From the NCBI RefSeq assembly GCF_000506985.1, contig NZ_KI650979.1, forward strand, positions 310,001 through 374,000: a stretch of 64,000 nucleotides of DNA, given 5' to 3'. Shown one piece after another: positions 19,396 through 60,504 of the stretch; the first letter of the stretch is position 1; every line of letters begins with the position of its first letter. The DNA is from Advenella kashmirensis W13003 (GTDB lineage Bacteria > Pseudomonadota > Gammaproteobacteria > Burkholderiales > Burkholderiaceae_B). Below the pieces are notes generated by a model. That model had not been told where the DNA came from. It did not search any database and worked only from the letters and a program-made list of their open reading frames with translations. The translations under genes and the position numbers were made by a program.

Positions 19396-19560
19396 ATTGT
19401 TTGGGTCGCAAAATTTATCCTCCTCGCCAAATGAAAGCCACATGCGATTGTGGAAGATTAGGAACTCACTGTTATCTACTTTATTCATTACTAGGGCAGC
19501 CATATGGATATCTACTGTAGACATCCATCCGGCACTTGAAGCATATGGAGTCGCTTAACC

Positions 19561-20232
19561 ATGGCAATTAGTGACAACACGGTAAAGCTGCTCTGGGGCC
19601 GTGCAGCCGGAATTTGCTCAAATCCTGGCTGCCGGGAAGATCTGACCGTCCTGCTCGAGGGTATTCGTGGCTTCAATGTTGGCGAGATGGCTCATGTTAT
19701 TGCCAGTAGCCCTACTGGCCCACGAGGAGTGGCCGGCGGAGGAAGTGATGAGTATGAAAACCTAATTCTTCTGTGCCCAACGTGTCATCGTACGATCGAC
19801 AAAGCTCCATCGGGAACCTACTCAACGGAAACGCTTCATTTATGGAAAAGATCTCACGAGGCTAGCATTCGTTCCAATGGCATGGCAAAAATTTTTCAGA
19901 ACTCTGAAGAATTAAAGAAACACATAACATTCCTACTTGCTGAAAACCATGCGCTGTGGGCCACTATAGGGCCGCAATCCTCAGTGGCAAAAACAGATCC
20001 CGGATCAAACATGAATGAAATTTGGACGTTGCGAAAACTTGATACGATCGTCCCCAATAATATTGAAATCATCAATACAATCGGCGCAAACTTTAGGCTA
20101 CTCAGCAAAGCAGAAATATATCTATTTTTCTTATTTAAAAATCACGCTAAGGCCTTTGAGCAACACCAATACACTAGGTTAGACAATTACCCACTCTTCC
20201 CCCAAGAGTTTGAGAAAGCGATGCAACCATGA
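19561..20232 (+). CDS. HNH endonuclease-domain protein
   Basis: A 223-residue protein whose N-terminal 80 residues form an HNH/zinc-finger nuclease fold: GICSNPGC (Cys19, Cys24), GEMAHVIASS (His45), then ENLILLCPTCHRTID (Asn67, Cys72, Cys75, His76). The remaining 140 residues, predicted mostly helical, I do not recognise. It is the first of three tightly overlapping genes (next start overlaps by 4 bp), 165 bp after herA. It may be a DNA-cutting effector of that cassette; the assignment to defence is from neighbours only. Confidence 0.75.
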   Translation: MAISDNTVKLLWGRAAGICSNPGCREDLTVLLEGIRGFNVGEMAHVIASSPTGPRGVAGGGSDEYENLILLCPTCHRTIDKAPSGTYSTETLHLWKRSHEASIRSNGMAKIFQNSEELKKHITFLLAENHALWATIGPQSSVAKTDPGSNMNEIWTLRKLDTIVPNNIEIINTIGANFRLLSKAEIYLFFLFKNHAKAFEQHQYTRLDNYPLFPQEFEKAMQP

Positions 20233-20648
20233 GCCAGAACGGAAGCAATACTTGGAATGTGAGCTTTGCCCAGATTTCATGGCTCGAGCGACTTATTCGA
20301 AGCCACGGAAACTTTCTCAACCTCAGCCGGCATCACGATATCGCGTTCGAATTAGATCGACGTCAACAGCAAGATCATCTTTCCATAATATGTCTCAACG
20401 AGTACGCGATGGGGCTTACCGCAGTACATCGTGTTATCCATGAATTCGGAAAGCCATCAATTATTTATATTGGTGGCGGGTGGTGCGGTTACACGGAGCA
20501 AGCAAAGGAATTTTGTCTTTCTGAGCGTATAGGACTTTATGTCACAAATGAAATGTCGGGTGCTCTTTGGGCCAGCGAATATTGGGGATATCATCAACGA
20601 GACCAGAAAGGCAATCCAAACTATTACTTTAGTCGAGAGCAGGCTTAG
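20229..20648 (+). CDS. Unknown 139-residue protein between HNH and nucleotidyltransferase genes
   Basis: Not recognised with confidence. It is a soluble alpha/beta-looking protein; KPSIIYIGGGWCGYTEQAKE and RIGLYVTNEMSGALWASEYW are distinctive stretches. The pattern hydrophobic strand - Glu-x-Ala-Lys - second strand recalls small restriction-endonuclease-like or Rossmann-like cores, but no catalytic set can be assigned. Its ATG overlaps the HNH stop (ATGA), and the following gene starts inside it, so all three are surely cotranscribed. Confidence 0.6.
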   Translation: MSQNGSNTWNVSFAQISWLERLIRSHGNFLNLSRHHDIAFELDRRQQQDHLSIICLNEYAMGLTAVHRVIHEFGKPSIIYIGGGWCGYTEQAKEFCLSERIGLYVTNEMSGALWASEYWGYHQRDQKGNPNYYFSREQA

Positions 20649-20895
20649 TTCTGTCTATGGTTTCGGATCCGCGTTTCGAGGAGAAGAATTTCAGGACATT
20701 GACATACTCGCCGTACTCGGCAAAAAAACCGGTTCCATGATAGAAACTTACTATGCTTTGCGGGAGGTGCTTGTGAGCGCAACGAGAATGTACGGCGCTC
20801 CAATACACTTGACGGTACTCACAGAACCTGAGTTCGAGTCAAGGCCTCTCAAGTGTATGAAAGAGCTTGTCCCTTTGTGGACTAATGAGAGCTAG
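20539..20895 (+). CDS. Minimal nucleotidyltransferase-domain protein
   Basis: About 118 residues with the DNA polymerase beta-like nucleotidyltransferase signature: YGFGSAFRGEEFQDIDILAV holds G-S followed by D-I-D, the metal-binding pair of MNT-type enzymes. Such small NTases act in toxin-antitoxin systems (adenylylating HEPN toxins or tRNA). There is no HEPN partner here; the neighbours are an HNH protein and an unknown. The start lies up to 110 bases inside the preceding gene: ATG 20539 or 20548 are possible, so the exact start is uncertain. Confidence 0.65.
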   Translation: MSQMKCRVLFGPANIGDIINETRKAIQTITLVESRLSSVYGFGSAFRGEEFQDIDILAVLGKKTGSMIETYYALREVLVSATRMYGAPIHLTVLTEPEFESRPLKCMKELVPLWTNES

Positions 20896-20983
20896 AAATC
20901 TCTTCCAGCAGCTTCAAGGCAGCTAAAGTCGGAGCTAGTGACCAGCGTGATTGTTACTCGCTTCACACTGATTTTTTCAGTTA

Positions 20984-21005
20984 AGTACAGGTACAGTACA
21001 GGTAC
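20984..21005 (+). repeat. Two tandem 11-bp repeats downstream of the HNH cassette
   Basis: AGTACAGGTAC occurs twice head to tail, followed by a partial third (AGTGACC). The surrounding 230 bases (20896-21126) contain no gene. Confidence 0.7.
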
Positions 21006-21126
21006 AGTGACCAGTTTTCAGCCAGTCAGGCAAAATACGCTAACCTACTGATTTGAAACTAGTTTTACCTATTTCAACCTACGCTAGAATTCGCCCCATT
21101 TCCCTGTATGAACACTGTAAATTACC

Positions 21127-21179
21127 GACTCAAAATCCCCCGCCGCAAAGCCTGCCGGTTCGATTCCGGCCCCGGGCAC
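21127..21179 (+). repeat. Second tRNA-Leu 3' end repeat (att-like)
   Basis: Matches 15354-15406 of the tRNA-Leu gene at 51 of 53 positions, from anticodon loop to GGGCAC. The 5' half of the tRNA is missing, so it is not a functional tRNA. It marks the right boundary of the 5.8-kb Sir2-HerA segment and the left boundary of the next segment. Confidence 0.88.
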
Positions 21180-21261
21180 GACAGTTAAATCCCTAGGAAA
21201 TACAATGATTTAGCGCGATTCCCATTCTTACTCCGATACCGGGGGGATCTTCTAAAATTGC

Positions 21262-21923
21262 GGACTCTACACCATAAACGGGGATGGTACTCACCAAACT
21301 CTGTTAATCACTCCATTCCAACCGCATTGAGCCAAGACTCGCAAGCGGTAATTCTCAAAATTCCTAAACCCATACGCACGACGCGAGAGCATTTCCATTT
21401 TAGTATGGAAGCCTCCGGTGATGCCATCGATTTGGAAAAACGCCACACCAAAGGCTTTATGGTTCTTCAGATCGACCAGCGTGGTCGCGTAGCCGTCCTT
21501 GCGGCTGAAGAAATGCTCGTCGATGCCCAGTATCTGCGGGCACGATCGGCCTGACAGCTTCGAGACTTTCTGCTTAACGAAGGACTGATACCAGCGCTCG
21601 ACCGCGGCGCTGCCGATGCGGTGCGCACAAGTCAGCTTGCGCTGGCTGACGCCGCCGTCGTGGGCCTCAAAGACCTCCAGGTGGTGCAGTGGTATTTAGG
21701 CAGGCTCAGTAGACACGCTCTGGTGCACAATCATCAATCGATTACCCTGGCGGGTGTGCTAGAACGCGCGCTGGTAGGTCGCCTTGATCCGGACCGTCTT
21801 GTGCCGGCAATGCAGGCAGGGTGGGCGCTGTCCAGGCCGGGTCCAGACGTGAATATCTCGAAGGTGTTGCACGCGCTCGACTACAACACCAGTCAATCCT
21901 AGTATAGAATTTACGGGGGACAT
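21262..21923 (-). pseudogene. ISL3-family transposase pseudogene (copy 2)
   Basis: Reading from ATG at 21923 gives MSPVNSILGLTGVVVERV and a zinc-finger start (CLHCRHKTVRI), then stop codons, then QILGIDEHFFSRKDGYATTL, and after an internal deletion the C-terminal GFHTKMEMLSRRAYGFRNFE. So several parts of an ISL3 transposase remain but the gene is broken by stops, frame changes and loss of most of the DDE domain. The outer terminus GGACTCTACACCATAAACG matches copy 1 at 15447. Confidence 0.82.
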
Positions 21924-21966
21924 CAGTATTACTTCCATTAAGCCATGTTCTTGCTAAAACAAGTTT

Positions 21967-21987
21967 AATGAATACCGCTTGTCCCCC
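21967..21987 (+). repeat. Dispersed 21-bp repeat, copy 1
   Basis: The 21 bases AATGAATACCGCTTGTCCCC plus one more C recur exactly at 37334-37354, and GATGAAGA follows six bases later in both places. It probably derives from the edge of a mobile element I cannot name. Confidence 0.6.
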
Positions 21988-22289
21988 ATTTATGATGAAG
22001 AGCTAAGAGCTACGCGGACAGGAGCTACAGTCGCGAATAAGGTGATGAAGTCAGGAAAGATGGTTGAGCAGGCAAAGGCCAGATCTTTGGGTGCAGAGTA
22101 CACGTAAGCGCCAGCTCGCAGGCCCGAAGGGGGAGGACGGGCCGTAGGAAGGCTGGCGAAGCCTAGAGCAGCGCGGTCTGCATATACACAGAGACGCCAT
22201 GGTTTGATTAGGTGAAGAGTTTCAAAAGCAACACCACTCTGTTAATTTTTGATACATTCAATTAAATATCAGTTAAAGGACAACTCACC
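21988..22289. other. Gene-free stretch before the CD-NTase stub
   Basis: 302 bases. A short plus-strand frame to the stop at about 22108 reads like a protein end but has no recognisable domain or start. Nothing else seen. Confidence 0.4.
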
Positions 22290-22685
22290 ATGCTGACTAG
22301 AGTCGATGAAGATTACCTTGCCGCACTTGCGATCAGTGATATGCGCTATGACAAAGCCAGCCGCAGCTACCCTTCGCTCGGAGCATGGCTACATCGCCCA
22401 CAGCCCACTGTCCTCGCCTATAACCCGCAAGTCCATGCACAAGGATCCTTTCGTTTAAGTACGGCAATCCGTCAACCGTGCGACGACGAAGAGTACAACG
22501 GCGACTCTGTCTTCATTCTTGAGACCTTGGGCGCCGACGACCTGTCCCAGAAACAGTTGAAAACGCTCGCTGGCAACGAAATCAAGGCGTATCAGCGGTC
22601 TCAGAACATGGTAAAACCCATGCAAGGAGGACGTCGCTGCCGGATAGCCGTAGCTAACGAAACAGGAACATTCAATGATCTCTGA
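22290..22685 (+). pseudogene. Truncated CD-NTase (CBASS cyclase) stub with ruined active site
   Basis: 131 residues that match the N-terminal third of CBASS cyclic-oligonucleotide synthases (about 300-400 residues when whole): a helical start, then AQGSFRLSTAIRQP and DDEEYNGDSVFIL. In active enzymes the latter is of the EYDVDLV type with two Asp; here the first is Asn, so metal binding should fail. Homology fades after GRRCRIAV and the frame stops within the ABC-3C effector gene, which starts 11 bp before this stop. It may be a relic of a replaced CBASS operon, or now only a leader coupled to the next gene. Confidence 0.7.
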
Positions 22686-23772
22686 TTCTGACCTCAAGAA
22701 AATCCAACCAAAATTATTGAATGGGGAATCATCTCCATTGCATGTTCAAGTCGGCGTACCAATTCCCAAGGTTATACGAATCAGATTTTTCAGCCCCGAC
22801 GAATGGGAGGAATTCACAGAGGAATGGGCGAGCTCTCTAAAAAGTGATTACTCCAGAGTCCGGCGCTTCGGTGGGTCTGGCGACTTGGGAGTTGATATTG
22901 CCGGTTTTTTTTCAGAACAAGGATTTGAAGGAGAATGGGATAACTATCAATGCAAGCGATATGATCACGCACTACGACCAGGAGATGTTTGGGTAGAAAT
23001 CGGGAAGATTATTTATTACTCATACAGAGGTGAGTACACCGCTCCACGTAAGCATTATTTCGTCTGCTCCCAAGGAATTGGGACTAGCCTTGAAAAGCTA
23101 TTGAACAAGCCAGCGGAACTGAAAGCAAAAACGATCGAAAATTGGGATAAATATTGCCTCAACGGAATCACCTCAACAGTAACCATATCACTAACAGGTG
23201 GCCTAAAAAGCCATCTAGACGCCTTTGACTTTTCAGTGTTCACATCCCGATCGCTAGTTGAAATAATAGAGGGACACTCCAAAACTGTTTTCCATGCTGT
23301 TCGCTTTGGTGGAGGACTCCCTGCCCGTCCAAATCCTACTACACCTCCACCCATACCTACCGAAAACGAAAGTCGCTACATTCGCCAACTCCTCGATGCT
23401 TATGGGGACCATCTGGGAACACGCTTGCATGACACAACAGCGCTGAATTCACACGACATTATCAAACGTGACTACCTACGGCAACGTGAACGTTTCTATC
23501 ACGCAGAATCCTTAAAAAACTTTGCGAGAGATACGGTACCGGAGGGTACATTTGACTCGTTACAAGACGAAATTTATCATGGTGTCATTGATATCTGTGA
23601 AAACAGCCATCCCACTGGATTCGAAAGAATGAAGGCAACGGTAGCACAAGCATCAGCTGTCGCAGGGACTTCAAATCCGCTGGTTTCTTCGATAAAAACC
23701 CAGGATCGACAAGGAATTTGTCATCAACTTGCAAATGATGACCGCCTAATTTGGATGCCGAAAAATGACTAG
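22675..23772 (+). CDS. ABC-three-component system effector with Mrr-like restriction endonuclease domain
   Basis: A 365-residue protein. Residues about 40-125 hold a restriction-endonuclease-like core: FGGSGDLGVDIAGF (Asp74) and WDNYQCKRYDHAL (Gln92, Lys94), the D...QxK pattern of Mrr-type nucleases. Residues about 235-365 (RQRERFYHAESLKNFARD) fit the C-terminal domain of ABC-3C effectors. In this proposed conflict system an SMC-like ATPase and a middle component are thought to license a toxic effector upon invasion. It overlaps the CD-NTase stub upstream (11 bp) and the middle component downstream (8 bp). Confidence 0.78.
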   Translation: MISDSDLKKIQPKLLNGESSPLHVQVGVPIPKVIRIRFFSPDEWEEFTEEWASSLKSDYSRVRRFGGSGDLGVDIAGFFSEQGFEGEWDNYQCKRYDHALRPGDVWVEIGKIIYYSYRGEYTAPRKHYFVCSQGIGTSLEKLLNKPAELKAKTIENWDKYCLNGITSTVTISLTGGLKSHLDAFDFSVFTSRSLVEIIEGHSKTVFHAVRFGGGLPARPNPTTPPPIPTENESRYIRQLLDAYGDHLGTRLHDTTALNSHDIIKRDYLRQRERFYHAESLKNFARDTVPEGTFDSLQDEIYHGVIDICENSHPTGFERMKATVAQASAVAGTSNPLVSSIKTQDRQGICHQLANDDRLIWMPKND

Positions 23773-24256
23773 TTCTATATACCCAAGTCCCTTTAATAGC
23801 CCACTCGAAACAGGGATACGTTCGCTGGCGATCCTTGTTGCTTCATTTCCAGTAGCATTTGATCTGCAGCGGCTGGTTGAGATGGACTATCTAGTGGTCC
23901 ATTCAGGAGATGCTGACGGTCCACAGAGCCTTCATGCGCCTCTTCCATTGCGCGCAGGAGAGCTTCTAGTGAGACGCGGTTTAATCGAAAAGGGTTTAAC
24001 CTTAATGATGAGCCGCGGTCTCGTGCAGCGCGTGCCGGCTAACGACGGTTTTAGCTATCTTGCTGGAGAAAGTGCTGCACCCTTCGTTGCTTCCTTAACT
24101 TCAAGCTACTCTCATCAACTTAAAGAACGTGCGGAATGGGCTGTAGGCAGATTTCAGGATATAAAAACGGAGGAAATTCAACGCATAACACATAGTTTTT
24201 TCCAGCAATGGTCAAGCCAATTCCAAATCATTAACTCGGGCCGGAGGCCTCATTGA
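23765..24256 (+). CDS. ABC-three-component system middle component
   Basis: A 163-residue protein matching the ABC-3C middle component type 2 pattern as I know it: FNSPLETGIRSLAIL, FDLQRLVEMDYLVVHSGD, SLHAPLPLRAGELLVRRGL and GFSYLAGESAAPFV, a winged-helix-like sequence. It presumably links the effector to the ATPase. Overlaps of 8 bp with the effector gene and 4 bp with the ATPase gene show a single operon. Confidence 0.78.
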   Translation: MTSSIYPSPFNSPLETGIRSLAILVASFPVAFDLQRLVEMDYLVVHSGDADGPQSLHAPLPLRAGELLVRRGLIEKGLTLMMSRGLVQRVPANDGFSYLAGESAAPFVASLTSSYSHQLKERAEWAVGRFQDIKTEEIQRITHSFFQQWSSQFQIINSGRRPH

Positions 24257-26085
24257 ACGATAATTATATGCAGCTTCGGAAAATTTTGTTCAGAGGCCCA
24301 AGCCGTGAGGCGAGCCTAAGCTTCGCACCTGGAGTAAATGTAATTTGTGGTGCGTCCGACACAGGAAAATCCTTCCTCGCTGAATCGATTGATTTCATGC
24401 TTGGCGGCTCGGAACTTCGAGGAATTACCGAATTAGCAAAATATGCCGAAATAGAACTCGACCTTAGTATCAATAATGGTGAAAATTGGCGCTTTCGTCG
24501 ATCCACATCCGGTGGAAATTTTAAGCTAATCAATCTTGCCAAACCAGATTCGGATGAGGAAGTACTCAAACAGAACCATACTCACGGAAAAACTGACAAT
24601 CTTTCGGGATTTTTGCTTGAGAAAATTGGACTTTTGGGGACAAAAATCCTAAAAAGTAGCGTCAAATCGACGACCCAAAGTCTTAGCTTTAGGAATTTGG
24701 CCCGACTTATCCTTGTGCAGGAAGACGAGATTCAGCAAAAAGGATCGCCGTTTTGGAGCGGGCAGTTCACGACCAAAACAGCGGAATTAGCAACTGTCAA
24801 ACTCTTATTGACTGGTATAGATGACTCTTCTGTGATCTCAACCATTGAAGTCGGTAAAAATAATACGGAACAGGTCGCTCTGATTGATGAGCTGCTCACA
24901 GATATCAAGATAGAAATCGAAGATATAGGAGGAAATCGTGACGAGCTTGAATCCCAGCTTGAGCGACTCGAGTCGTCAATTAAAAGTCATCGAGATTCGC
25001 TCAATGTCGTACAGCAACGACTGGATAGCTTCCTGGCCCAAAGGCGTCGAGCGCTCAACGAGCGAACTGATACGCTAGATCGCCTAAGCGAAATTTCCGA
25101 TATGTTCTCACGGTTCAATTTGCTTCAAGAGCATTACGTCGTTGACATACATCGTCTTGAGGCGATCCAAGAAAGCGGCTCAATGTTTACTCATGTTGAC
25201 TCAGTTCCTTGCCCACTTTGTGGTGCAACGCCTAATGCACAACATCTGGAAGCCTCTTGCGAAGGTGACGTTAGTGCGATTGTTACCGCCGCTGTCGCAG
25301 AGATTGCAAAGATTGAGAAGCTGAAAGACGAATTGAATAACACTATTGCCGATCTTAAGACTGAGGAATTTGGCCTTGAAGAATTGCTAGCGGAAAAAGA
25401 GGCCACTTACCAGTCGCTAGACAAAACAATACAGCAAACAATTGGGCCCGAAGTCAATGACGTCCAGATTTCATTTTCAGAACTGATAGAGACGCGTTCT
25501 AAGATCCAAAAATCCATTGATCTGTTCACAAGAAAAGACAAACTTGAGAGTCGTAAGCGCGCATTGGAAGATGAAGGCGACACAAGAGAAGAAAAAGGCG
25601 ATGTAATATCCGGGCTTCCCGAGTCAATCGCACACTCACTCTCTAAAAAAATATCGTCGATCCTCAAGGCGTGGAATTTTCCGGGCGATGGACACGTTTA
25701 TTTCGATAAACAAAGTTCAGATTTTGTCATTGATGGCAAACCCCGTGGCAGCCGCGGCAAGGGACTACGTGCAATTACACATGCAGCTGTAAGCGTTGCA
25801 CTGCTTGAGTTTTGTCAGGAAAAAGGCCTATCACATCCCGGATTTATCACTCTCGATTCTCCTTTGCTCGCCTACTTCAAACCGGAGGGCGAAGATGATT
25901 TAGCTCTTAAAGGCACTGATTTAAAAGATCGCTTCTATGAATATCTTGCAAAGCACCATGGCAGAGATAGCCAAGTTGTAATTATAGAAAATCAACACCC
26001 ACCTGAGAGTATGAAAAATCGCCTTACTGTGACCGTGTTTACCAGCAATCCTAACGAAGGCCGCTTTGGGCTACTTGAAAAGTGA
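24253..26085 (+). CDS. ABC-three-component system SMC/Rad50-like ATPase
   Basis: About 610 residues. Walker A is VICGASDTGKSFLAES (GASDTGKS 33-40); a long coiled-coil centre holds a Rad50-style zinc-hook-like CPLC (Cys320/Cys323); the C-terminal head has GLSHPGFITLDSPLLAY (Walker B) and VVIIENQHPPES. This layout is typical of the DUF3732-like ATPases of ABC-3C systems, which are thought to sense DNA. TTG 24253 overlaps the previous stop (TTGA); ATG 24268 (MQLRKILFRG) is equally possible. The downstream DNA is an IS21 remnant. Confidence 0.82.
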   Translation: MNDNYMQLRKILFRGPSREASLSFAPGVNVICGASDTGKSFLAESIDFMLGGSELRGITELAKYAEIELDLSINNGENWRFRRSTSGGNFKLINLAKPDSDEEVLKQNHTHGKTDNLSGFLLEKIGLLGTKILKSSVKSTTQSLSFRNLARLILVQEDEIQQKGSPFWSGQFTTKTAELATVKLLLTGIDDSSVISTIEVGKNNTEQVALIDELLTDIKIEIEDIGGNRDELESQLERLESSIKSHRDSLNVVQQRLDSFLAQRRRALNERTDTLDRLSEISDMFSRFNLLQEHYVVDIHRLEAIQESGSMFTHVDSVPCPLCGATPNAQHLEASCEGDVSAIVTAAVAEIAKIEKLKDELNNTIADLKTEEFGLEELLAEKEATYQSLDKTIQQTIGPEVNDVQISFSELIETRSKIQKSIDLFTRKDKLESRKRALEDEGDTREEKGDVISGLPESIAHSLSKKISSILKAWNFPGDGHVYFDKQSSDFVIDGKPRGSRGKGLRAITHAAVSVALLEFCQEKGLSHPGFITLDSPLLAYFKPEGEDDLALKGTDLKDRFYEYLAKHHGRDSQVVIIENQHPPESMKNRLTVTVFTSNPNEGRFGLLEK

Positions 26086-29194: not shown

Positions 29195-32092
29195 TCAACT
29201 TACCTCCGCTATGAAACGCTTCAACTTTGCATCAGGATAACCGTCGCTCACAAACTTACGAACGCTCGGCTTAAAAGCAGGTGAAATCTCGTAGAAATCA
29301 GCGACTGTCTTTGCCTTAGTGTGCAGAAAGTACCCTGCAGCCAGTAGCCGATCAAACTTATCTGCAGCAAGGCCTGGAACCTTGTTTGAGAACTTGATGA
29401 ACTGTCGTTTATTGTCAATGAAATGGTCACCGCGGAAAAAAGAACGGAGGAAGCGAGATATCTCACTATGGATCATTGCCTTTTCTTCGGCTTTGCTCCC
29501 TTGTGTGACAACGAAGGCTTCCTGCAAATCCCCTGGATCGCAAGTGATGTCAATCATCGACGGTTCGAGCTGCGTATTTTTGATCGCGATATCTGCGCAG
29601 TCTTCGAAGGTCGAGTACATGAACTTTGTTTTGCTAAATCGACAAGCCATCAGATTTCGATACCCATGAAATCTCGACCGCGTGACAATCAGATTCGAGA
29701 AGTCCAACGTTGGAAACGAGCCTTTAATATAAAGGCCATTCAGCGTACGCTGACATTCTTCGTAACCGCATAGACCGTAGAAGGAAAGGAGCTTTTCCGT
29801 CGTCTCCTGAACTGGTAGTTTGTGGATCGCAAAGTAAACGTGCAGCAAACCTGCGATCGCAGCCTTCGCCCGTTCGCTATCTACTCTAGTGCTTTTTGAC
29901 GACGATTCCGATACCGCTTCGTCACGAAGCTTCGGTATTATTGCAGCGAGGGCTTTTTCGACCCCTAAGAGGTTCGTCCTGAAGAAGCGCTTGAGATCCT
30001 CCCCCTCCTCGTTGTCTGGTATTAACCGCGAAAATGCGAGAATAGTGCTTTTTTCAAGGCTCGTGTGCATGAGTCCACGAAGCATGAGAAGCACCTCGAG
30101 GTACGAACTCAAGAACGAATAACGCAGCTCGATGTCGTCCCCTTTTACCACTAGCAGCGGATTCAATTGGAGTTTGGAGGCAATCGAACTCGCACGAGCT
30201 TCGTATAAAATGTTGAGCCGCTCGAACATCTGCGAAGCTGGCCAACGTTTTCCAAAGTCGATTACGAGCTCCGAGATAAGTTCAACCACCTCGGCTTCTG
30301 GAATTTCTACTTCATGCCTTGTTTTCTCGCGACGCAAGACAGAATAAATTATGTGGTCGGTAAGGTCGTTATTCGATGGATACGGGGTCAAATCATCTGA
30401 CACATCGAGATCATCCGTTCGACCGTCTCGCAATTCATCTTCAACTACAGTCGTTGAGATATCGGCAAGGAAAGGGATGATACGCCCTTCGTCATCGCGA
30501 ATACGGATCTTCGCGATTTGCGACATAACTTTTTCGGCCATAGATTCCGCAGAGGTATAGCTCGCAAGGCGACGGTTAACGTAACTTCGACAGCTTTCAG
30601 TGTCAAAACCCAATAGTTCGTAACGCTCAATCGCAAGCGACTCCAATCGAATGTCATCCGCGATGACATGATTACGAGTGGTTAGCAAAACGTTAGAGCT
30701 ACCAAGTTGATCATGCAGATGTTTTAGAGACTCCAAGAATGCGCCAACATCGAATCTCTCCTGAAAGAGTGAGGTCAATTCATCTAAACCATCAATGATA
30801 ACAGAGAGGTTGCCGCAAACGACAGCTAAATCAAACGTCGACCGTTCAAAGAGTTTTCCGTGTCCTTGGTACTTGGCATATAGTTCATAGATATCGTAGA
30901 TACTCTCCACGCGAGATTGAGCGAGGCCGCGCTCAGCAACATATTTTTTTATTGACTCGGCTTGTATGAGGACTACCGAAGAACGAAGATCTTCTCGAAA
31001 ATGTAGTCTCTGGGCCACAGATAAACAAAGAGACGTCTTTCCCATTCCTCCTGGAGCCACGATCAAGTGGGCAGCTACCTTCGAGGGCTTTTGTAAAGCC
31101 TCGACCACGTGGTCCAGTGCAGGCTCTACGCGAATAGACTCTCCATTTTCATTGCTGATGTAGGTCAGTGCTTGGTTAGTGTAGTTTTCAATTGGGCTCG
31201 GCTGGTCAATTTGCTTGAGCGAAGCATCAATGCAATAGTCCCAGATGTACTCTTTGTAAGTGCATTCGTGGACCCGTGTCGAGAGCCCTACCTCATTGAA
31301 GGTACGTGCGATGAGATCTTGCTCTGGCCGACCAACGCGCGGTCGCAGGACAGTAATATCGCCCGGACGAATCTCGGCCTTCAACAGTTGCTGCGCCGCA
31401 TGCTGAGCACTCTGCTTGATGTTGCCACTCGGATGCAGTGCAAGAAAGTAGCCTACAGCCGGAGACTTTGTTTCCCACAGCTCGTATTTCACCCGGTGAT
31501 TACCGGAGAAATCAGTGCCAGCGGCTCCGGTAACCAGCGCTCGGCGGTTGGGGTGATTGACTTGGATGAGTTCTTCGACCCTGGTGAAGTCATAGGCCAC
31601 CTCACTGAGGGTAGTGAGACTGCGACGCTTCTTGGGACGTTGTGCCGTGGCGCGGCCTCGCAACAAGGAAAGCAGTTCTTCAATACTCTTGGGAAAGAGT
31701 GCATCATCCGTAAAGTCAAGACGAAAGTGGCCTTTCAAATAGCGTGGTGTGGAATCCTGCTCTCGCTGCATAACGATCAGCTTGCTTCGTTTTTCCCGCA
31801 CCATCCCTTCCCAATGCACAGCGCTTGCTAGAAAGGTTTCAAGCCCTACGCCGTTTATACGGTCGTCGGCCTTCTCCTTGTACTTAGTTGTGGCCACCAC
31901 CAGCACGTAATCTGCGTCATGGATACCAGCTTCCATAAAATAATTTTTGTCGACTAGGCTATCTAGGTCATAACCATCCCAAGCGACCGAAATCTCTTCG
32001 ATTTCCTCCAAAGTATCTGCCAACTTCTTGACCCACGCCCTATGCTCTAAACTATCCCAGCTGTAGGAAATGAAGATTTTTATGTTTTCCAT
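29195..32092 (-). CDS. SEFIR-NACHT STAND protein with C-terminal pentapeptide-like repeats, candidate defence protein
   Basis: A 965-residue multidomain protein. Residues 1-145 are a SEFIR (TIR-related) domain: KIFISYSWDSLEHRAWVKKL. Residues about 160-290 form a domain I do not recognise (NHRVKYELWETKSPAVGYFL). The NACHT NTPase follows, with Walker A VAPGGMGKTSL (346-356) and Walker B SVIIDGLDELTSL (430-442). The C-terminal third is helical, then LDFSNLIVTRSRFHGYRNLM ... CRFSKTKFMYSTFEDC, resembling pentapeptide repeats. STAND proteins of this type sense phage and fire the N-terminal effector, here probably NAD+ cleavage. ATG 32092 has AGAGAG upstream; ATG 32122 or 32155 are alternatives. Confidence 0.8.
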   Translation of the reverse strand: MENIKIFISYSWDSLEHRAWVKKLADTLEEIEEISVAWDGYDLDSLVDKNYFMEAGIHDADYVLVVATTKYKEKADDRINGVGLETFLASAVHWEGMVREKRSKLIVMQREQDSTPRYLKGHFRLDFTDDALFPKSIEELLSLLRGRATAQRPKKRRSLTTLSEVAYDFTRVEELIQVNHPNRRALVTGAAGTDFSGNHRVKYELWETKSPAVGYFLALHPSGNIKQSAQHAAQQLLKAEIRPGDITVLRPRVGRPEQDLIARTFNEVGLSTRVHECTYKEYIWDYCIDASLKQIDQPSPIENYTNQALTYISNENGESIRVEPALDHVVEALQKPSKVAAHLIVAPGGMGKTSLCLSVAQRLHFREDLRSSVVLIQAESIKKYVAERGLAQSRVESIYDIYELYAKYQGHGKLFERSTFDLAVVCGNLSVIIDGLDELTSLFQERFDVGAFLESLKHLHDQLGSSNVLLTTRNHVIADDIRLESLAIERYELLGFDTESCRSYVNRRLASYTSAESMAEKVMSQIAKIRIRDDEGRIIPFLADISTTVVEDELRDGRTDDLDVSDDLTPYPSNNDLTDHIIYSVLRREKTRHEVEIPEAEVVELISELVIDFGKRWPASQMFERLNILYEARASSIASKLQLNPLLVVKGDDIELRYSFLSSYLEVLLMLRGLMHTSLEKSTILAFSRLIPDNEEGEDLKRFFRTNLLGVEKALAAIIPKLRDEAVSESSSKSTRVDSERAKAAIAGLLHVYFAIHKLPVQETTEKLLSFYGLCGYEECQRTLNGLYIKGSFPTLDFSNLIVTRSRFHGYRNLMACRFSKTKFMYSTFEDCADIAIKNTQLEPSMIDITCDPGDLQEAFVVTQGSKAEEKAMIHSEISRFLRSFFRGDHFIDNKRQFIKFSNKVPGLAADKFDRLLAAGYFLHTKAKTVADFYEISPAFKPSVRKFVSDGYPDAKLKRFIAEVS

Positions 32093-32240
32093 TTTTCTCT
32101 CTTTGAATTCTCTCTTTTCCATAGCGGAAACTGGTTGCACACCCAACACATGCATTTCAGAAACGTTTACAACTCAATAGACCGGTAACTGCAACAGTCA
32201 AAAAAGACAGCTCAAACGCCAAACAAGACTGCCCATCTCT

Positions 32241-37421: not shown

Positions 37422-37581
37422 TTATTCGATCTCGATACCCGCATCATCAATGATTGAGCGCCACTTGGCACTGTCTTTCTGCACAAGCGCGGTCAACGCC
37501 TCTGGTGTGCTGGATACGAATTCGACACATTGAGGCTCAAACTTCTTGTTCATTTCCGGGTTATCAATAATCTTGGCAACA
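37422..37581 (-). pseudogene. C-terminal fragment of a Bug-type TTT receptor
   Basis: The reverse frame reads VAKIIDNPEMNKKFEPQCVE ... ALVQKDSAKWRSIIDDAGIE and a TAA at 37422, the standard end of tripartite tricarboxylate transporter receptors. The first five sixths of the gene are missing. The remaining bases to 37796 hold an inverted repeat (about 37625-37650) and no gene. Confidence 0.75.
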
Positions 37582-37796
37582 CTACCGCCCCTGCCGGATC
37601 GTCCTTAGATTGTTGAGAAAGGCCACAAAAATCCGGCGAATGCCGGTTCGGCCTGCTGCTACCGCAGTTGCAGAAATCTTGACTGAAGAAAAATCCGGAC
37701 GGTGATGAATTCACTCTCGGCGCGCGAGCCACGCCCGTCGTTTATATTTTAAATATTTGATCAGTGTCGTCACTTGGAAGCTCCTTACACTTTTTA

Positions 37797-39020
37797 TTAC
37801 ACTGGGAGCGCCCATGTAAAACTAGTATCTCCTCGTTTTTCAGTCCAAAAGGGTCCAGTCGAATTGATAGGTGCTTGCGCGCCAGATTGAGTGACCATTA
37901 GTTTGAACTGGGCGCCTACAGGTTCTCCATAATTTACCCAATCAGTAAAACCTTTTAGCATGTTTTGTTTATAACGCTCGTCTCCAAAACTGCGTAAATT
38001 TCCCCCGTTCCAGACTGCGCCTGACGACCAATCAGCGGAAAGAAGACACTGCCCAATTGCCGATGGATCACCGAACACACCCGCTTTGAAGCTAGGCGCG
38101 ATTTTATGATTGCTGAGGCCTACCACTAGATAATCCGATTGAGTCTTGGACATGAAGGATGAAAAGGCCAGAACGCCAGGAGGACCACCCGGAATATCCA
38201 GAATCTGCTGATGACCATGTTGGATCTTGTCGAGTAAGGCATCGTTACCGTGTTTAATCCCCGACAGATCGTTGCCGGAAGACGTCTGTATCATCTGCAC
38301 AAACTTACAAATCCGCGCATCTATAGACTCAAATCCCCATTCAGTACGGACCAAAATTTGCACCTCTTCAGCTAATCCTTTATTGCGAAGAGGAATAATT
38401 ACCCGCCCTCCAATTTTGCACAAGTCAAATAGGTATTGCGGGAATCTATACGTTGACGCCGTATACATGATGCGGTCAAACTGACCTTCTCTGACGGGGC
38501 AGGTGTTACCGTCTGCAAGCAAGATGGTAGCCTGACCAAGTCCAACATCTTGTAAGTTTGAACGAGCTTTAGCTGCCAGAGACGGAATGATCTCAACACC
38601 GGTCGCATTGGCTGCAATGCCGGATAGTTCTGCCATCATTGCCAGGAGCCATCCTGTTCCACATCCTATTTCCAGGACGCGATCTCCGGCACGGATATCT
38701 AATAGCGAAAGGAGATGAACAATGAAGGCAGGTTCAGAGCTCGAAGCTTGCAAGCTTTCTCCCTTCTCCCCGACATACATAAGAGGCTGATTTGAATAGA
38801 TAAGTTCAAGCGCTTCCGCATCGGAACTGGAACGAAAGGACGTTTCCCACATTTCACTTACAAGACGAAAACGGTGTATAAACTTGTGCCGAGGGTACTT
38901 CAAGAAGGTCTGCCTTATACCATCATTAATTTGTGAGGGAGGACCATAGACCGGCGTATACCTGACCACAGTATCCAATAGCTCAAGATTAAGAGTTGAA
39001 TAATCAACAGACATGTTCAT
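37797..39020 (-). CDS. PCMT-like SAM methyltransferase in an amino-acid hydroxylase operon
   Basis: 407 residues. The N-terminal half is a protein-L-isoaspartate O-methyltransferase-like fold with SAM motif GDRVLEIGCGTGWLLAM (about residues 115-131) and GGRVIIPL. The C-terminal about 170 residues (QTQSDYLVVGLSNHK not conserved elsewhere I know) form an extra domain. PCMT relatives with such extensions modify peptides in natural-product clusters; here it is the third gene after an amino-acid hydroxylase and a LysE exporter (37-bp gap). True substrate unknown; protein repair is less likely given the context. Confidence 0.7.
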   Translation of the reverse strand: MNMSVDYSTLNLELLDTVVRYTPVYGPPSQINDGIRQTFLKYPRHKFIHRFRLVSEMWETSFRSSSDAEALELIYSNQPLMYVGEKGESLQASSSEPAFIVHLLSLLDIRAGDRVLEIGCGTGWLLAMMAELSGIAANATGVEIIPSLAAKARSNLQDVGLGQATILLADGNTCPVREGQFDRIMYTASTYRFPQYLFDLCKIGGRVIIPLRNKGLAEEVQILVRTEWGFESIDARICKFVQMIQTSSGNDLSGIKHGNDALLDKIQHGHQQILDIPGGPPGVLAFSSFMSKTQSDYLVVGLSNHKIAPSFKAGVFGDPSAIGQCLLSADWSSGAVWNGGNLRSFGDERYKQNMLKGFTDWVNYGEPVGAQFKLMVTQSGAQAPINSTGPFWTEKRGDTSFTWALPV

Positions 39021-39057
39021 TATCTCCCAAAGAAAAGAGTGTTTATGGCGGTTTCAT

Positions 39058-39672
39058 TCACAGGCCGATCAAATAATTAATATTTTTTATAAATAAAGTG
39101 AGGCCAATTATTATTATCAAAAAGCCACTTGCTTTGCGCATCTTGTTAATTGCTGATTGATTCAGCTTCTTAGCAATGATGTTGGCGATTATTGCGTACC
39201 CCATCATTATGCTGAAGTCAACGATGACCCAACCAACCGTCAATGATGTCGCTGACACAAAATAAGGAATGGATTGATTTATAAACTGAGGAAGAAGAGT
39301 GATAAAGAAAATAATATCTTTCGGATTACTTATTCCCGTAAAGAACGACTCCTTGAATAGCGCGAGATTATTATGCTCATATATATCCGCCCTATTGATT
39401 TCGATACTTTTAAAACCTGATATCCCCACATAGATGAGCAATATCGCACCCAGAATCGATAGTACAGTCATCCATATATCATTTAGAAAAAATGCTATCC
39501 CGGCCAGGGAAATAACAATTAGAATGAAAGAGGCGCATATGCTTCCAAGGGCGTTATATAGACATTTTCTAGCTCCAAACATTGCCGAATGTTGAATGAC
39601 AAGCAGAGCGGAAGGTCCTGGCGTTACGATAATCAGGAATATCGTTGCGAGATATAGGGTGTATTGTTTCAC
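39058..39672 (-). CDS. LysE/RhtB-family amino-acid exporter (copy 1)
   Basis: 204 residues with about six membrane segments; IFLIIVTPGPSALLVIQHS near the N-terminus and FFTGISNPKDIIFFITLLPQ (G-x-x-N-P-K) are the LysE/RhtB signatures. GTG start at 39672. It follows the hydroxylase gene by 8 bp and so likely exports its hydroxylated amino-acid product. A close relative lies at 59722. Confidence 0.9.
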   Translation of the reverse strand: MKQYTLYLATIFLIIVTPGPSALLVIQHSAMFGARKCLYNALGSICASFILIVISLAGIAFFLNDIWMTVLSILGAILLIYVGISGFKSIEINRADIYEHNNLALFKESFFTGISNPKDIIFFITLLPQFINQSIPYFVSATSLTVGWVIVDFSIMMGYAIIANIIAKKLNQSAINKMRKASGFLIIIIGLTLFIKNINYLIGL

Positions 39673-39680
39673 TATTGCAC

Positions 39681-40655
39681 TTATATAATTTCTCGTATAA
39701 CTGGCACTTGATCAGGAAGCCGCTTTCTCACTGCATCTATATCCTGCTTGACAAAAACTCGCTGAAGCCACCTGTCATACCCATCAAAATATGCTTTAAA
39801 TTTCGTACGTGAGTGCGATGTGCGACGATTATCTATAATAATTAAGTCCCCAGGCTCTAACACTACTGTTTCCATAGTAGATCGCAAAGCCAGGTCGAGT
39901 TCACGAAGCGCGGATGAAGACTTTTCATTTAATGGAGTAATTAAATCCGAGTCGTAAGTCATATATGGATCTGACAAATCTCCTTCCAGGATTGGGCAAT
40001 TTTTTAATTTATTGCTTTTTCCTAAAAAATTTCCAAATGACAAATCATAAGCGAAAGAGAAATTCGGCTTTCTAAGTTCGTCAATGATTTCTTTGCTTAG
40101 CATGTGCAAAGCTTTGCGAACACAAGCCACGCCTGTTTTTGCCTGCTGATGATGATCTTGACGTAAACAATACAAAAGAAGGAAATCGGGGCGAAATTCG
40201 TGAAAGGCGATATCAGTGTGGAGTTCTAAAAAAACATCGCTACTTTCAGAAGATTGAACCGAAGCACTCTGAGGTAAGGGACGAATATTATTGAATAGAG
40301 ATCCCTCGCTTTCCTGTATAAAACCGTACAACTCACCTAAATGAGACCCTACCATCGTAAGGCAATATTCCGACACAAAAGCCGGTCGGGAACGCACTTC
40401 TTCATGCCTTTCTGGTGTTCTGATGAGTTTTTCATCGCAAGGCATTCCTTTTATAAGAATAAATCCATCAGTGTTTCCGTCGGATCTGAATTGAATAATT
40501 TTTGAAAGTACGCTTATAGGCAGCGTAAAGAAAGCAGTTTGAGCATGATGTTTAAAATCACGCATGGATAAATACGGATTGAGCTCACTCGAATCCGGCA
40601 CGCATATTCCAGAATACCCCTGAGATACATATGACTTGAGGTCGATGATAGACAT
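39681..40655 (-). CDS. Fe(II)/2-oxoglutarate-dependent amino-acid hydroxylase, VioC/AsnO (clavaminate synthase-like) type
   Basis: About 324 residues. The iron ligands appear as LELHTDIAFHEFRPD (His-x-Asp) and the distal His in IIIDNRRTSHSRTKF; the following YFDGYDRWLQRVFVKQDI is very like the end of the arginine/asparagine beta-hydroxylases VioC and AsnO. These enzymes hydroxylate free L-amino acids for peptide antibiotics. A LysE exporter and PCMT-type methyltransferase follow in the same operon. The start is uncertain: ATG 40655, ATG 40715 or GTG 40745 are in frame and none has a good ribosome site. Confidence 0.8.
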   Translation of the reverse strand: MSIIDLKSYVSQGYSGICVPDSSELNPYLSMRDFKHHAQTAFFTLPISVLSKIIQFRSDGNTDGFILIKGMPCDEKLIRTPERHEEVRSRPAFVSEYCLTMVGSHLGELYGFIQESEGSLFNNIRPLPQSASVQSSESSDVFLELHTDIAFHEFRPDFLLLYCLRQDHHQQAKTGVACVRKALHMLSKEIIDELRKPNFSFAYDLSFGNFLGKSNKLKNCPILEGDLSDPYMTYDSDLITPLNEKSSSALRELDLALRSTMETVVLEPGDLIIIDNRRTSHSRTKFKAYFDGYDRWLQRVFVKQDIDAVRKRLPDQVPVIREII

Positions 40656-40745
40656 AACTTTTTTGAACCAGTGAAATGCAATGGGTTTATCGCAAATTTG
40701 TCGAAAAAAATACATCAGATAGATTTCTACATCGGCTGATCGCAC

Positions 40746-41099
40746 TATGGCGCTTTTCTATGAGTGTCTATGTATTTTTTAATTTAATTTTTTTACTCAA
40801 CCAAAGAAATTCTATTGCAATGAAAAAATCAACGCATTGATCTACATCAATGCACCGGACAACGTGAAGATTTTGATAACTGCCTACAGCGGTATCGCCA
40901 ACACCATTCAAGACTAGTTAAAGTCCGCCACAGACTCCGATGTCAAGTCAAAATCTTGATCCGTATCATTTTCAACCGATAAATTTCGAGCTACGATGCC
41001 GTTTCGCTTTGTGACAGTCCTGCCCGCGCCATCTGCAAACGTATGAGGACTTTCGCAGAAGGATGAAGTCGATTTCAAAACATTCTTGATTCAATTGCC
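40746..41099. other. Intergenic region with conserved operator block
   Basis: 354 bases between the hydroxylase operon and the Nudix gene. It carries ATTGCAAT (40814-40821) and the inverted repeat ATTGAT-CTAC-ATCAAT (40836-40851). The same two elements, with the same spacing and similar flanks, lie upstream of the second lysE at 60397-60434. The rest shows no gene. Confidence 0.6.
40814..40851 (-). promoter_or_regulatory. Probable operator of the hydroxylase-lysE operon
   Basis: ATTGCAAT and ATTGAT-N4-ATCAAT, conserved with copy 2 while the four spacer bases differ (CTAC against ATGC), as expected for a protein-binding site. An Lrp/AsnC-type regulator would suit an amino-acid exporter but none is adjacent. 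Confidence 0.55.
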
Positions 41100-57570: not shown

Positions 57571-58647
57571 TCAGATGTCTTCAAGCGTAAAGTTAAGGCG
57601 GGTGTCTTTCACCACAATGCCGCCACGATTGCCCGGTTCCAGCGACCCATATCGGGCCGCAAAACTCTCCGGCAAAGGACGGGCGGTTCTGGGAGAAACC
57701 CACAGCCGAAGCAGGTGACGGCGGCGTTCCAGTTCGGGCCAGTCCTCGAAATCCGTGCGCGAGTGCAGAATCTGGTGGTTATGCAGAAACTGCATGTCGC
57801 CCACCTTGAATTCCATTTGCAGATTGATATCGGTGTCGTTAGTCAGGTCGTCCAGCATTTGCAGGGCGTCGATTTCCGGTTGCGTCAGGCGCCTGGCCTG
57901 GGGGTAGTTTTCCTGGGCGCTGCGGATATATTGCCCAGAATAAATCGTGGTGAAATACCCCTCATGCCAATTGAAAACGGGCACCTCAAACCACGGGTCC
58001 ATGCCTTCGGGTATTTCGCCGCGGCGATCCGTGGGAAATGAATGGAACAACTGCACTGCCAGGTCCGGCCGACGCGCCATCATCTCGTTGTAGATCGTCA
58101 CGGAACTGGCGATTCGGCTCTCTCCCCCGCTTTTTGAAGTCTGCAGGCACAACAGGCCCACGATATCGCATGAATCGGTATGGTATTCAAGGCCCCTGTT
58201 TGTCTGGTAATAACGGACCTTGGCGTTCCGGATATCCGCGCCCATATCGCGCACATGCCCAAGCAAATGCCCTTTTGCATTCTGCGAACGAAAGCTTCCC
58301 AGATGTGCGCCAATGCCAAGATACGCGATGGCCGAGTCGGCCTTTCCATACTTCTCTACAGGCATGCCGCGCAGCAGCACAAAGCCGCGGCCATTAATAA
58401 TTTCATTCAGAATTTTGCCCAGTTTCTCCGACAGGCGGGGCAAGGAGAAGGTGTCGGGGCTGATGTCTGCCATGGACAGTCCGCCCGCATGAAAGGCGTC
58501 CAGCGCCGCGTCGATTTCCTTGATATCCTCGGACGTCAATGCGTGGATCCATTCGGTACCGCGGGACATATCCCGCCCGTACCAGGCGGCTTCCCCGCTC
58601 ACCGCCTCGGGCACATTGTTAGCAACACGCTCTGTTGGGTTGTTCAT
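57571..58647 (-). CDS. TauD/TfdA-family Fe(II)/2-oxoglutarate dioxygenase
   Basis: 358 residues. The iron motif is GLEYHTDSCDIVGLLCLQ (His-x-Asp), the distal His lies in LHNHQILHSRTDFED and the 2-oxoglutarate Arg in RRHLLRLWVSPR. Such enzymes release aldehydes from sulfonates, ethers or N-methyl compounds by hydroxylation. First gene of the operon with Bug receptor and aldehyde dehydrogenase, divergent from a LysR gene. GAGGA lies 6 bp before ATG 58647; ATG 58650 is the other choice. Confidence 0.9.
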   Translation of the reverse strand: MNNPTERVANNVPEAVSGEAAWYGRDMSRGTEWIHALTSEDIKEIDAALDAFHAGGLSMADISPDTFSLPRLSEKLGKILNEIINGRGFVLLRGMPVEKYGKADSAIAYLGIGAHLGSFRSQNAKGHLLGHVRDMGADIRNAKVRYYQTNRGLEYHTDSCDIVGLLCLQTSKSGGESRIASSVTIYNEMMARRPDLAVQLFHSFPTDRRGEIPEGMDPWFEVPVFNWHEGYFTTIYSGQYIRSAQENYPQARRLTQPEIDALQMLDDLTNDTDINLQMEFKVGDMQFLHNHQILHSRTDFEDWPELERRRHLLRLWVSPRTARPLPESFAARYGSLEPGNRGGIVVKDTRLNFTLEDI

Positions 58648-58744
58648 CATTTTCCTCTGTGAATAATGAAAAGATGAAATTAGTTTAAACTTGGGAAAAT
58701 GTTTGAACAAACGAATAATTTCAATCCATTAATCGATTTTATCA

Positions 58745-59721: not shown

Positions 59722-60336
59722 TTACAGGTACGTCAAAATAAAAATATTTTTTGCAAATAAAGTGATGCCAATTATTATTATCAAAAAACCACTGGCTTTT
59801 CGCATCTTGTTAATTGCTGATTGATTTAGCTTTTTTGCAATAATGCTGGCAATTATTGCGTACCCCATCATTGTGCTGAAATCAACGATGATCCATCCGA
59901 CAGTCAGCGATGTCGCTGATACAAAATAAGGAATTGATTGATTTATAAACTGAGGAAGAAGAGTGATAAAGAAAATAATATCTTTCGGATTACTTATCCC
60001 CGTAAAGAAAGACTCCTTGAATAGAGCGAAATTAGTATGCTCATATATACCAACGCTATTGATCTCGATATTTTTAAAACCTGATATTCCCACATAAATT
60101 AATAATAGTGCGCCCAGAATCGATAATACATTCATCCATATACCATTTAAAAAAAATGCTATCCCGGCCAAGGAAATAACAATTAGAATGAAAGAGGCGC
60201 ATATGCTGCCAAGGGCGTTATATAAACATTTTTTGGCTCCAAACATTGCCGAATGTTGAATGACCAACAGAGCGGAAGGTCCTGGCGTTACGATAATCAG
60301 GAATATCGTTGCGAGATATAGGGTGTATTGCTTCAC
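59722..60336 (-). CDS. LysE/RhtB-family amino-acid exporter (copy 2)
   Basis: 204 residues, GTG start, differing from the copy at 39058 at only about two dozen positions in the whole chain and identical through FILIVISLAGIAFFLN and FFTGISNPKDIIFFITLLPQ. Its upstream operator block also matches that of the first operon, but here it leads straight into lysE: the hydroxylase gene is absent and no PCMT gene follows. A diverged duplicate. Confidence 0.9.
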   Translation of the reverse strand: MKQYTLYLATIFLIIVTPGPSALLVIQHSAMFGAKKCLYNALGSICASFILIVISLAGIAFFLNGIWMNVLSILGALLLIYVGISGFKNIEINSVGIYEHTNFALFKESFFTGISNPKDIIFFITLLPQFINQSIPYFVSATSLTVGWIIVDFSTMMGYAIIASIIAKKLNQSAINKMRKASGFLIIIIGITLFAKNIFILTYL

Positions 60337-60396
60337 AAGTCAGCTTAAAAATATCTGTTTATTGTTTTAATTTTTGCATCCAACCAAACTAATTCT

Positions 60397-60434
60397 ATTG
60401 CAATGAAAAAAACAACGCATTGATATGCATCAAT
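60397..60434 (-). promoter_or_regulatory. Operator block upstream of lysE copy 2
   Basis: ATTGCAAT (60397-60404) and ATTGAT-ATGC-ATCAAT (60419-60434), same order and spacing as 40814-40851. It lies 61 bases before the GTG start. Confidence 0.55.
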
Positions 60435-60504
60435 TCTCTAGACAACGTTAAGAAGCCCCTTCTGTTTCACAGACGCTGGAGCAAATACGGTGTCGATACT
60501 CTGC

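Follow-up and report, generated by a model that had tools for sequence, protein, structure and literature searches.

Within a 64,000-nucleotide stretch of the Advenella kashmirensis W13003 genome (contig NZ_KI650979.1, positions 310,001 to 374,000; hereafter the window, whose numbering we use throughout), three intact genes in the open-frame listing lie in one minus-strand operon at 37.8–40.75 kb and encode, in order, an Fe(II)/2-oxoglutarate (2OG) hydroxylase (HYD), a LysE-type amino-acid exporter and a PCMT-type methyltransferase (MT). The reading we prefer, which we hold with about even confidence, is that the operon contains a horizontally acquired, oxygen-responsive module in which HYD would hydroxylate a free amino acid and LysE would export the product. 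The sequence itself provides a class II FNR-type promoter, the ligand residues of HYD, the gene order, the selection acting on lysE, and the recurrence of the hydroxylase–lysE pair; we infer the substrate class, the export of the product, and regulation in vivo.

HYD (39681–40655), lysE (copy 1, 39058–39672, encoding 204 residues of the LysE/RhtB family), and MT (37797–39020, encoding 407 residues) are separated by gaps of 8 nt between HYD and lysE and 37 nt between lysE and MT, and a GGGAG element resembling a Shine-Dalgarno (SD) site precedes MT. A first-pass annotation of the window had placed a tight three-gene operon at 37797–40851; its genes and their tight arrangement stand, but its upper boundary does not, as the open HYD frame reaches only to 40745, the segment 40746–40851 contains the promoter, and position 40851 is not the end of a gene. 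The open HYD frame (39681–40745) begins with GTG and would encode 354 amino acids, but the likely start is the ATG at 40655, which gives a 324-residue protein of the same length as the 1drt chain. The annotation had also named a VioC/AsnO-like hydroxylase, a LysE exporter, and an extended PCMT-type enzyme, and these assignments held in Pfam searches, in PDB matches, in a residue alignment for HYD, and in a motif search for MT, with Pfam scores that all exceeded their cut-offs (HYD against TauD, 56.9 bits; LysE, 82.4 bits versus a cut-off of 25.6; PCMT-type MT, 84.9 bits).

The best PDB matches of HYD were clavaminate synthase 1 (CAS1; 1drt, 3.2e-50, query residues 29–306 of 324), clavaminate synthase 3 (4.2e-48), and AsnO (2og5, 5.5e-47, query residues 37–314), and L-Lys 3-hydroxylase (6e-34) and Arg hydroxylases were matched as well. 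When HYD was aligned to 15 of its relatives and to four enzymes of known structure, the AsnO columns H155, H287, R301, R305, E125, and D241 were all conserved in HYD. We take H155 and H287 of AsnO to bind iron, R301 to bind 2OG, and R305 to bind the substrate carboxylate. The role of R305 in HYD is assigned by analogy with Arg334 of VioC, which contacts the substrate carboxylate in an enzyme whose facial triad has been described (PMC10884159). Loss of the iron ligands, which the first-pass annotation had named as a refutation, is not seen in the sequence, although Asp replaces Glu: the E157 column of AsnO is Asp in HYD, giving an HTD (His-x-Asp) motif instead of the His-x-Glu of AsnO and CAS1. 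Asp also occupies this position in 3 of the 15 aligned relatives (L028, L039, and L045) and at loci L081 and L083 of the f48 family introduced below, and the N146 column of AsnO is Ser in HYD. Because the iron, 2OG, and substrate-carboxylate residues are conserved, we expect HYD to be active, with a free α-amino acid as its most probable substrate. HYD thus shares with the clavaminate synthase/AsnO/VioC/L-Lys 3-hydroxylase group similarity over most of the protein, the facial triad, and the 2OG and substrate arginines, but differs from it in having His-x-Asp, in scoring under the equivalog cut-offs, and in lacking a firm place in the tree.

Two narrower identities for HYD were set aside. Clavulanate-type chemistry corresponds to the top NCBIfam score, but that score is about half of the cut-off and the partner genes are absent. 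Identity with lysX of the Pseudomonas aeruginosa lysR–lysXE operon was considered and not used; PA4364, taken here to be lysX, appears in the literature as a putative acetyltransferase (PMC6521587) and within 'pyoverdine-iron importers' (PMC12041424).

Upstream of HYD, an FNR/ANR-type palindrome, TTGAT-N4-ATCAA, occupies 40837–40850 on the minus strand and is followed after 22 nt by a –10 hexamer, TAGAAT, at 40809–40814, with transcription expected to start near 40802. A second such box lies at 60420–60433, also on the minus strand, with TAGAAT at 60392–60397 and the same spacing. Both copies fit class II FNR geometry, with the box centered at –41.5 relative to the –10 hexamer, and the canonical box and class II position (center at –41.5) have been described for an Ideonella dechloratans promoter (PMC7349173). 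Pattern counts speak for both sites: the window has two perfect boxes (0.14 expected; two or more in 2 of 100 shuffles), the combination of box, 22 nt, and TANNNT occurs twice (0.00 expected; 0 of 100 shuffles), and the whole genome has 14 perfect boxes compared to one match for the reversed pattern. When the other 12 genomic boxes were inspected by eye, one preceded genes resembling those for cbb3-oxidase maturation (with a ccoS-like frame), one preceded an OmpW-like gene, and another lay upstream of a gene for a Crp/Fnr-type regulator; three (L050, L056, and L057) fell within long frames and may not be promoters. The genome also has an FNR gene, whose product by eye carries CxxCxxxxxC and ETVSR and scores 226.5 bits against the Fnr model, just under the cut-off of 228. 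Expression of the operon thus apparently responds to low oxygen via FNR, as judged from promoter sequence.

The second box belongs to a second promoter–lysE unit about 20 kb from the operon, and neither the class II box nor this duplicate had appeared in the first-pass annotation. LysE copy 2 (59722–60336, minus strand) is 92% identical to copy 1 over 198 amino acids. Over these 198 codons, dN is 0.040 and dS is 0.314 (dN/dS ~0.13), and the low dN relative to dS shows that the two copies have diverged under purifying selection. The similarity extends into the upstream DNA, where a minus-strand segment at 40769–40870 on the copy 1 side matches 88 bp at 60366–60453 on the copy 2 side (84% identity in an 88-base blastn match, which a local alignment extends). 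In copy 1, the hydroxylase gene stands between promoter and lysE and MT follows, whereas in copy 2 lysE lies 29 nt beyond the shared segment with neither hydroxylase nor methyltransferase. Against the NCBIfam models that define substrates (homoserine/threonine, leucine, and cysteine), LysE copy 1 scored below every cut-off. A TauD-family oxygenase gene is found near copy 2 at 57571–58710, with a LysR gene between them; its product is a remote relative of HYD (26% identity over 131 residues).

The annotation had asked whether the three genes co-occur elsewhere, and the answer differs between the full set and the hydroxylase–lysE pair. The three-gene set was found nowhere else in 398 genomes sampled from the phylum, in a genome-contig scan, among the plasmid loci with MT matches that were read, or at the f48 loci. 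In the phylum sample, seven genomes besides that of the window encode a relative of HYD (E ≤ 1e-15), and in two of these (G394 and G450) lysE is adjacent (L021 was left out of the wider reading of these loci, and L027 was not worked out); MT had no match at E ≤ 1e-30 in the 397 other genomes. The pair recurs consistently in the family of G394 (f48), where 23 of 148 sampled genomes have HYD at E ≤ 1e-20 and all 23 loci have lysE downstream on the same strand after a gap of 0–9 nt. When eight of these loci were read more widely, six had a divergent LysR gene and two did not in frame clustering; by eye, LysR–hydroxylase–LysE sets of this family (L022, L023, and L100–L105) occupy at least two chromosomal settings, one on a metK/transketolase side and one on a nitrilase-like side. 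The f48 loci resemble the window in the placement of lysE directly after the hydroxylase gene but differ in having a LysR neighbor, in a LysE only 27–29% identical to that of the window, and in lacking, within flanks of ~1.5 kb, both a perfect FNR box and MT. The window LysE has a paralogue in its own genome that is equally distant from it (29%) as the LysE proteins of G394 and G450 are, which hints that the pairing in the window arose separately from that in f48.

Other HYD relatives show looser associations. In G329, another genome of the phylum, a LysE gene is ~2.9 kb from the hydroxylase gene, which adjoins an argininosuccinate-synthase-like gene; among 138 genomes sampled from the taxonomic order of G329, no other encodes HYD. 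Four further relatives adjoin EamA, TSUP, or MFS transporter genes, and two (L026 and L046) adjoin nonribosomal peptide synthetase (NRPS) genes. A hydroxylase gene beside an argininosuccinate-synthase-like gene was observed at L010 (4616–7811, Sulfobacillus plasmid, with an EamA exporter), L025 (5178–7429, G329), and L040 (4815–7185, Streptomyces plasmid); these three hydroxylases cluster in the tree with support of 87/77, and the combination is possibly a widespread amino-acid pathway. Among plasmid records, 126 had a HYD match, with nine neighborhoods read, and 458 had an MT match, with three read. Genome-contig pattern scans recovered nothing for HYD and only the plasmid of a Rhizobium strain for MT, but these short patterns overlook distant kin, such as the Sulfobacillus and other relatives found among plasmids, and an empty result from them counts for little. 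Viral-contig scans likewise recovered nothing for HYD; with MT they recovered PIMT-like genes, and a scan begun from one of these returned just itself.

A recent foreign origin of HYD and lysE is taken as indicated by their low G+C content and near-absence from sampled genomes of the order. HYD has 40% G+C, lysE copies 1 and 2 have 38% and 36%, MT has 47%, and htpG has 56%. At E ≤ 1e-30, lysE was absent from 398 other sampled genomes of the order and from nine others of the genus, and HYD at E ≤ 1e-25 was found in just one of the 398 order genomes, with 29% identity and adjoining an NRPS gene.

Two known systems bear on the proposed module. Production of L-2-amino-4-methoxy-trans-3-butenoic acid (AMB) by Pseudomonas aeruginosa (ambABCDE) employs a LysE-type transporter and two Fe/2OG oxygenases and depends on NRPSs (PMC4357302). 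The AMB cluster thus resembles the operon in joining a LysE-type exporter to Fe/2OG oxygenases and in making a non-proteinogenic amino acid, but it needs two NRPSs, whereas the operon has none nearby, a single oxygenase, and a PCMT-type methyltransferase in addition. In Pseudomonas fluorescens WH6, two LysE proteins whose roles overlap export the non-proteinogenic amino acid 4-formylaminooxyvinylglycine (FVG), and the producer needs one or both of them to survive (PMC8067088). The two lysE copies of the window recall this arrangement, but the FVG (gvg) cluster has other enzymes, with no Fe/2OG hydroxylase in the passages of its gene table that were consulted (PMC8067088). LysE-type efflux of hydroxy-L-lysine was assumed rather than demonstrated in another study (PMC12930750). 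The first-pass annotation had called the pathway undescribed. That claim is partly right: LysE with Fe/2OG enzymes is known from AMB and LysE export of a non-proteinogenic amino acid from FVG, but neither of these clusters is a stand-alone hydroxylase–LysE pair, and such a pair appeared in no title or abstract start among the matches listed, a search that lay outside most subscription journals and is therefore weak evidence of novelty.

In the mechanism we favor, oxygen limitation would cause FNR to activate HYD–lysE–MT and the second lysE. HYD would then use 2OG and the remaining oxygen to hydroxylate a free L-α-amino acid, which we guess to be polar and Asn/Asp- or Lys-like, and LysE would export the hydroxylated product, which could be a signal, an antimetabolite, or overflow, and would protect the producer. 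The second FNR-controlled lysE would supply extra export capacity, and MT would be in line for the same transcript, probably acting on Asp of a peptide or protein. The earlier proposal that a hydroxylated amino acid is made and secreted fits the recurrence of the pair, the exporters beside some relatives, and a hydroxylase of the type that acts on free amino acids, and to this extent it is plausible and gains support from comparison.

Several observations weigh against this mechanism or limit its reach. An oxygen-consuming enzyme is not what one expects behind an FNR promoter, except under micro-oxic conditions, and none of the 23 f48 loci has a perfect FNR box within flanks of ~1.5 kb on each side, where MT is also missing. 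Copy 2 is a lysE without a hydroxylase, and LysE may thus serve a different substrate. No exporter was found next to HYD at L024, L028, L044, L045, or L046 in the regions examined. HYD is below every NCBIfam equivalog cut-off (CAS1, 235.6 of 450 bits; GntD, 182.7 of 345; VioC, 134 of 418.6) and is therefore not assignable to CAS1, GntD, or VioC. In a tree of 25 rows (four of them partial PDB chains; L003–L008, L019/L027, the L020 short copy, and L021 excluded), the window HYD fell in no firmly supported group, and the LysE-linked rows were all on one side of one branch, whose support was just 15/76; with no firm place for the window, the tree does not decide whether the pairing arose once or separately. 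Moreover, the seven f48 hydroxylases in the tree form one clade (support 100/99), so the f48 pairing counts as one well-kept instance and not as 23 independent ones. The lowered G+C content is not special to MT, as the genes flanking the operon (33.9–41.6 kb; NUDIX, MFS, aldo/keto reductase, and LysR) have 46.8–50.3%.

MT is PAMT-like on two features of its sequence. First, its PCMT domain spans residues 86–227 and is followed by some 160 more residues, with matches to PCMT-type models stopping at residues 225–248 of 407; a C-terminal extension of more than 100 amino acids, as here, is a criterion for the RiPP-type aspartyl methyltransferases named PAMTs (PMC10787088). Second, residues 361–367 read WVNYGEP, which fits WXXXGXP, the motif of most C-terminal domains in PIMTs associated with ribosomally synthesized and post-translationally modified peptides (RiPPs) according to a 2026 review (PMC13001092). 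We treat this motif as a pointer and no proof because it arises in 3.2% of shuffled MT C-termini (167 residues) and occurs exactly in four of nine proteins (the window MT, Rhizobium, Prauserella, and L061, but not L011, L059, L060, L062, or L064), with L060 lacking it yet almost reaching the cut-off of a graspetide-type model (378.8 of 380 bits). MT itself scored below the NCBIfam cut-offs for TIGR04188 (96.7 of 380 bits) and TIGR04364 (96.3 of 320 bits). A structure was predicted from a seven-row alignment deepened with the PIMT-like viral-contig genes; the catalytic domain was predicted well, the C-terminal part mostly had a predicted local distance difference test score (pLDDT) below 50, and Foldseek ranked Thermotoga PIMT (1dl5) first over 371–377 columns at a root-mean-square deviation of 11–12, with a poorly predicted C-terminus.

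The closest full-length MT relative found (37% identity over 97%) is encoded on the Ti plasmid of Rhizobium sp. L51/94, where its neighbors are a YcaO gene interrupted by an IS3 element, a SagB-type nitroreductase gene, and a weak macrolactam-cyclase match; the region (L009, 4578–11654) is in its own right a damaged and odd RiPP-like cluster with a PAMT-like gene. A second relative (26%) lies within a lasso-peptide cluster, and a third (24%, Caballeronia, 671 amino acids, motif absent) has no RiPP-type cluster around it. A survey of PAMTs counts two clusters for linear azol(in)e-containing peptides (LAPs) and 3653 of 9408 PAMTs without a known partner (PMC10787088). MT thus resembles RiPP-type PIMTs of imiditide, graspetide, lasso, and LAP pathways in its PCMT domain, long C-terminal extension, and WXXXGXP, but its locus differs from theirs in having no recognized RiPP partner or convincing precursor and in its scores below the TIGR04188 and TIGR04364 cut-offs. 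No RiPP enzyme was recognized among the scanned neighbors of the operon, and a scan for frames of 20–100 codons over 36.0–42.7 kb found no convincing precursor; the sole SD-linked frame rich in Gly, Pro, and Asp (37546–37608, 20 codons, TTG start, opposite strand, 30% G/P/D) is not precursor-like. The missing RiPP partner lowers the probability of PAMT membership without excluding it, because for 70.2% of PAMTs no RiPP cluster is known (PMC10787088). The likeliest role of MT is that of a peptide-directed enzyme that is merely a neighbor of HYD and lysE.

How these three genes came to stand together, and what they make, can be read in other ways. It is quite possible, if short of probable, and compatible with the module proposed above, that MT is an orphan PAMT, either a leftover of a RiPP cluster or a recruit from one, that HYD–LysE is a separate two-gene module, and that rearrangement of the region brought the three genes together by chance. 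The extension and motif of MT, the RiPP-type settings of two of its relatives, its absence from copy 2 and from the short flanks of all 23 f48 loci, and partial duplicates in the region all fit this account, which has to reckon with an MT that is intact, runs in the same direction, and has its own SD-like site in the 37 nt past lysE, with the lack of any other recognized RiPP gene nearby apart from one unconvincing small frame, and with the patchy occurrence of the motif, which even L060 lacks. If MT instead acted on the product of HYD, as the first-pass annotation had suggested, a hydroxylated amino acid would be made, methyl-esterified, and exported. The genes run in one direction at short distances, and many PAMTs have no known partner, but we find this version very unlikely, since the known enzymes with the architecture of MT act on peptides, whose Asp side chains they methylate (PMC13001092), the nearest full-length relative found sits by YcaO- and SagB-type genes, and MT accompanies the pair nowhere else in the genomes searched.

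The substrate and purpose of HYD can also be questioned. Detoxification or overflow, with HYD modifying and LysE removing a harmful amino acid or analogue and the product having no function outside, seems rather unlikely: the LysR beside the f48 pair resembles LysR-type control of lysE, a lysR–lysXE lysine-export operon is cited in the reference list of PMC12930750, and survival of the FVG producer depends on LysE export (PMC8067088), but efflux needs no costly hydroxylation, and some HYD relatives stand in biosynthetic settings with NRPS, ATP-grasp, or argininosuccinate-synthase-like genes. Very unlikely, and the least likely of these, is a carrier-bound or peptidyl substrate for HYD whose synthesis is encoded elsewhere in the genome. 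The NRPS genes beside L026 and L046 would suit such a substrate, but the Arg of column 305, taken to bind a free α-carboxylate, is kept in HYD, although it is kept in L026 and L046 too, and no NRPS-sized frame is nearby. The claim that the operon lies outside any peptide-synthetase cluster is upheld by this last point, the largest frame listed at 12–64 kb being 986 amino acids (29195–32155, a bSEFIR match). A bolder extension of the preferred reading, which we regard as distinctly unlikely, is a peptide-synthetase-free, low-oxygen pathway in which the hydroxylase, a PAMT-fold MT working on a small molecule or an unrecognized scaffold peptide, and the duplicated LysE would secrete a new modified amino acid, within a wider undescribed hydroxylase–LysE class assembled more than once.

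The surroundings of the operon contain further features. Immediately after MT, the small-frame scan detected a 20-codon GTG frame with an SD-like site (37711–37773, minus strand) that may be the truncated beginning of a fourth gene, and a remnant resembling a Bug receptor was seen by eye at 37422–37553, for which Pfam gave no confirmation. An RNA search of the window revealed no riboswitch upstream of the operon and gave only a tRNA. Partial duplicates of aldehyde dehydrogenase and aldo/keto reductase genes (44572–44754/54899–55602 and 37031–37121/51505–51595) are not collinear with the lysE duplication. A defense island (16604–26085 and 29195–32155) includes a SIR2–HerA pair (16604–19395), an HNH gene resembling a CBASS effector (19561–20232), a short match to an oligonucleotide cyclase (22290–22685), Lamassu-type LmuA/LmuC/LmuB (22675–26085), IS21-like frames (26.2–28.5 kb, by eye), and the bSEFIR protein (29195–32155). 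The 3′ part of a tRNA-Leu gene (15324–15408) is repeated (15354–15406 at 21127–21179, 96%), and together with a second repeat (15442–15636/21257–21449, 91%) it resembles the ends of an integrated element. A perfect 38-bp palindrome lies at 2065–2102.

If a hydroxylase shares an operon with its own exporter, the expected fate of the hydroxylated free amino acid is secretion as an end product and not use as a building block, and the pairing at 23 of 23 loci in a second family makes this prediction testable with two genes. The natural promoter–lysE duplicate without a hydroxylase, 20 kb away, offers a built-in comparison. If the PAMT-type enzyme acted on the HYD product, its fold would have gained a surprising substrate, and FNR control, if true, would tie secretion to micro-oxic life.

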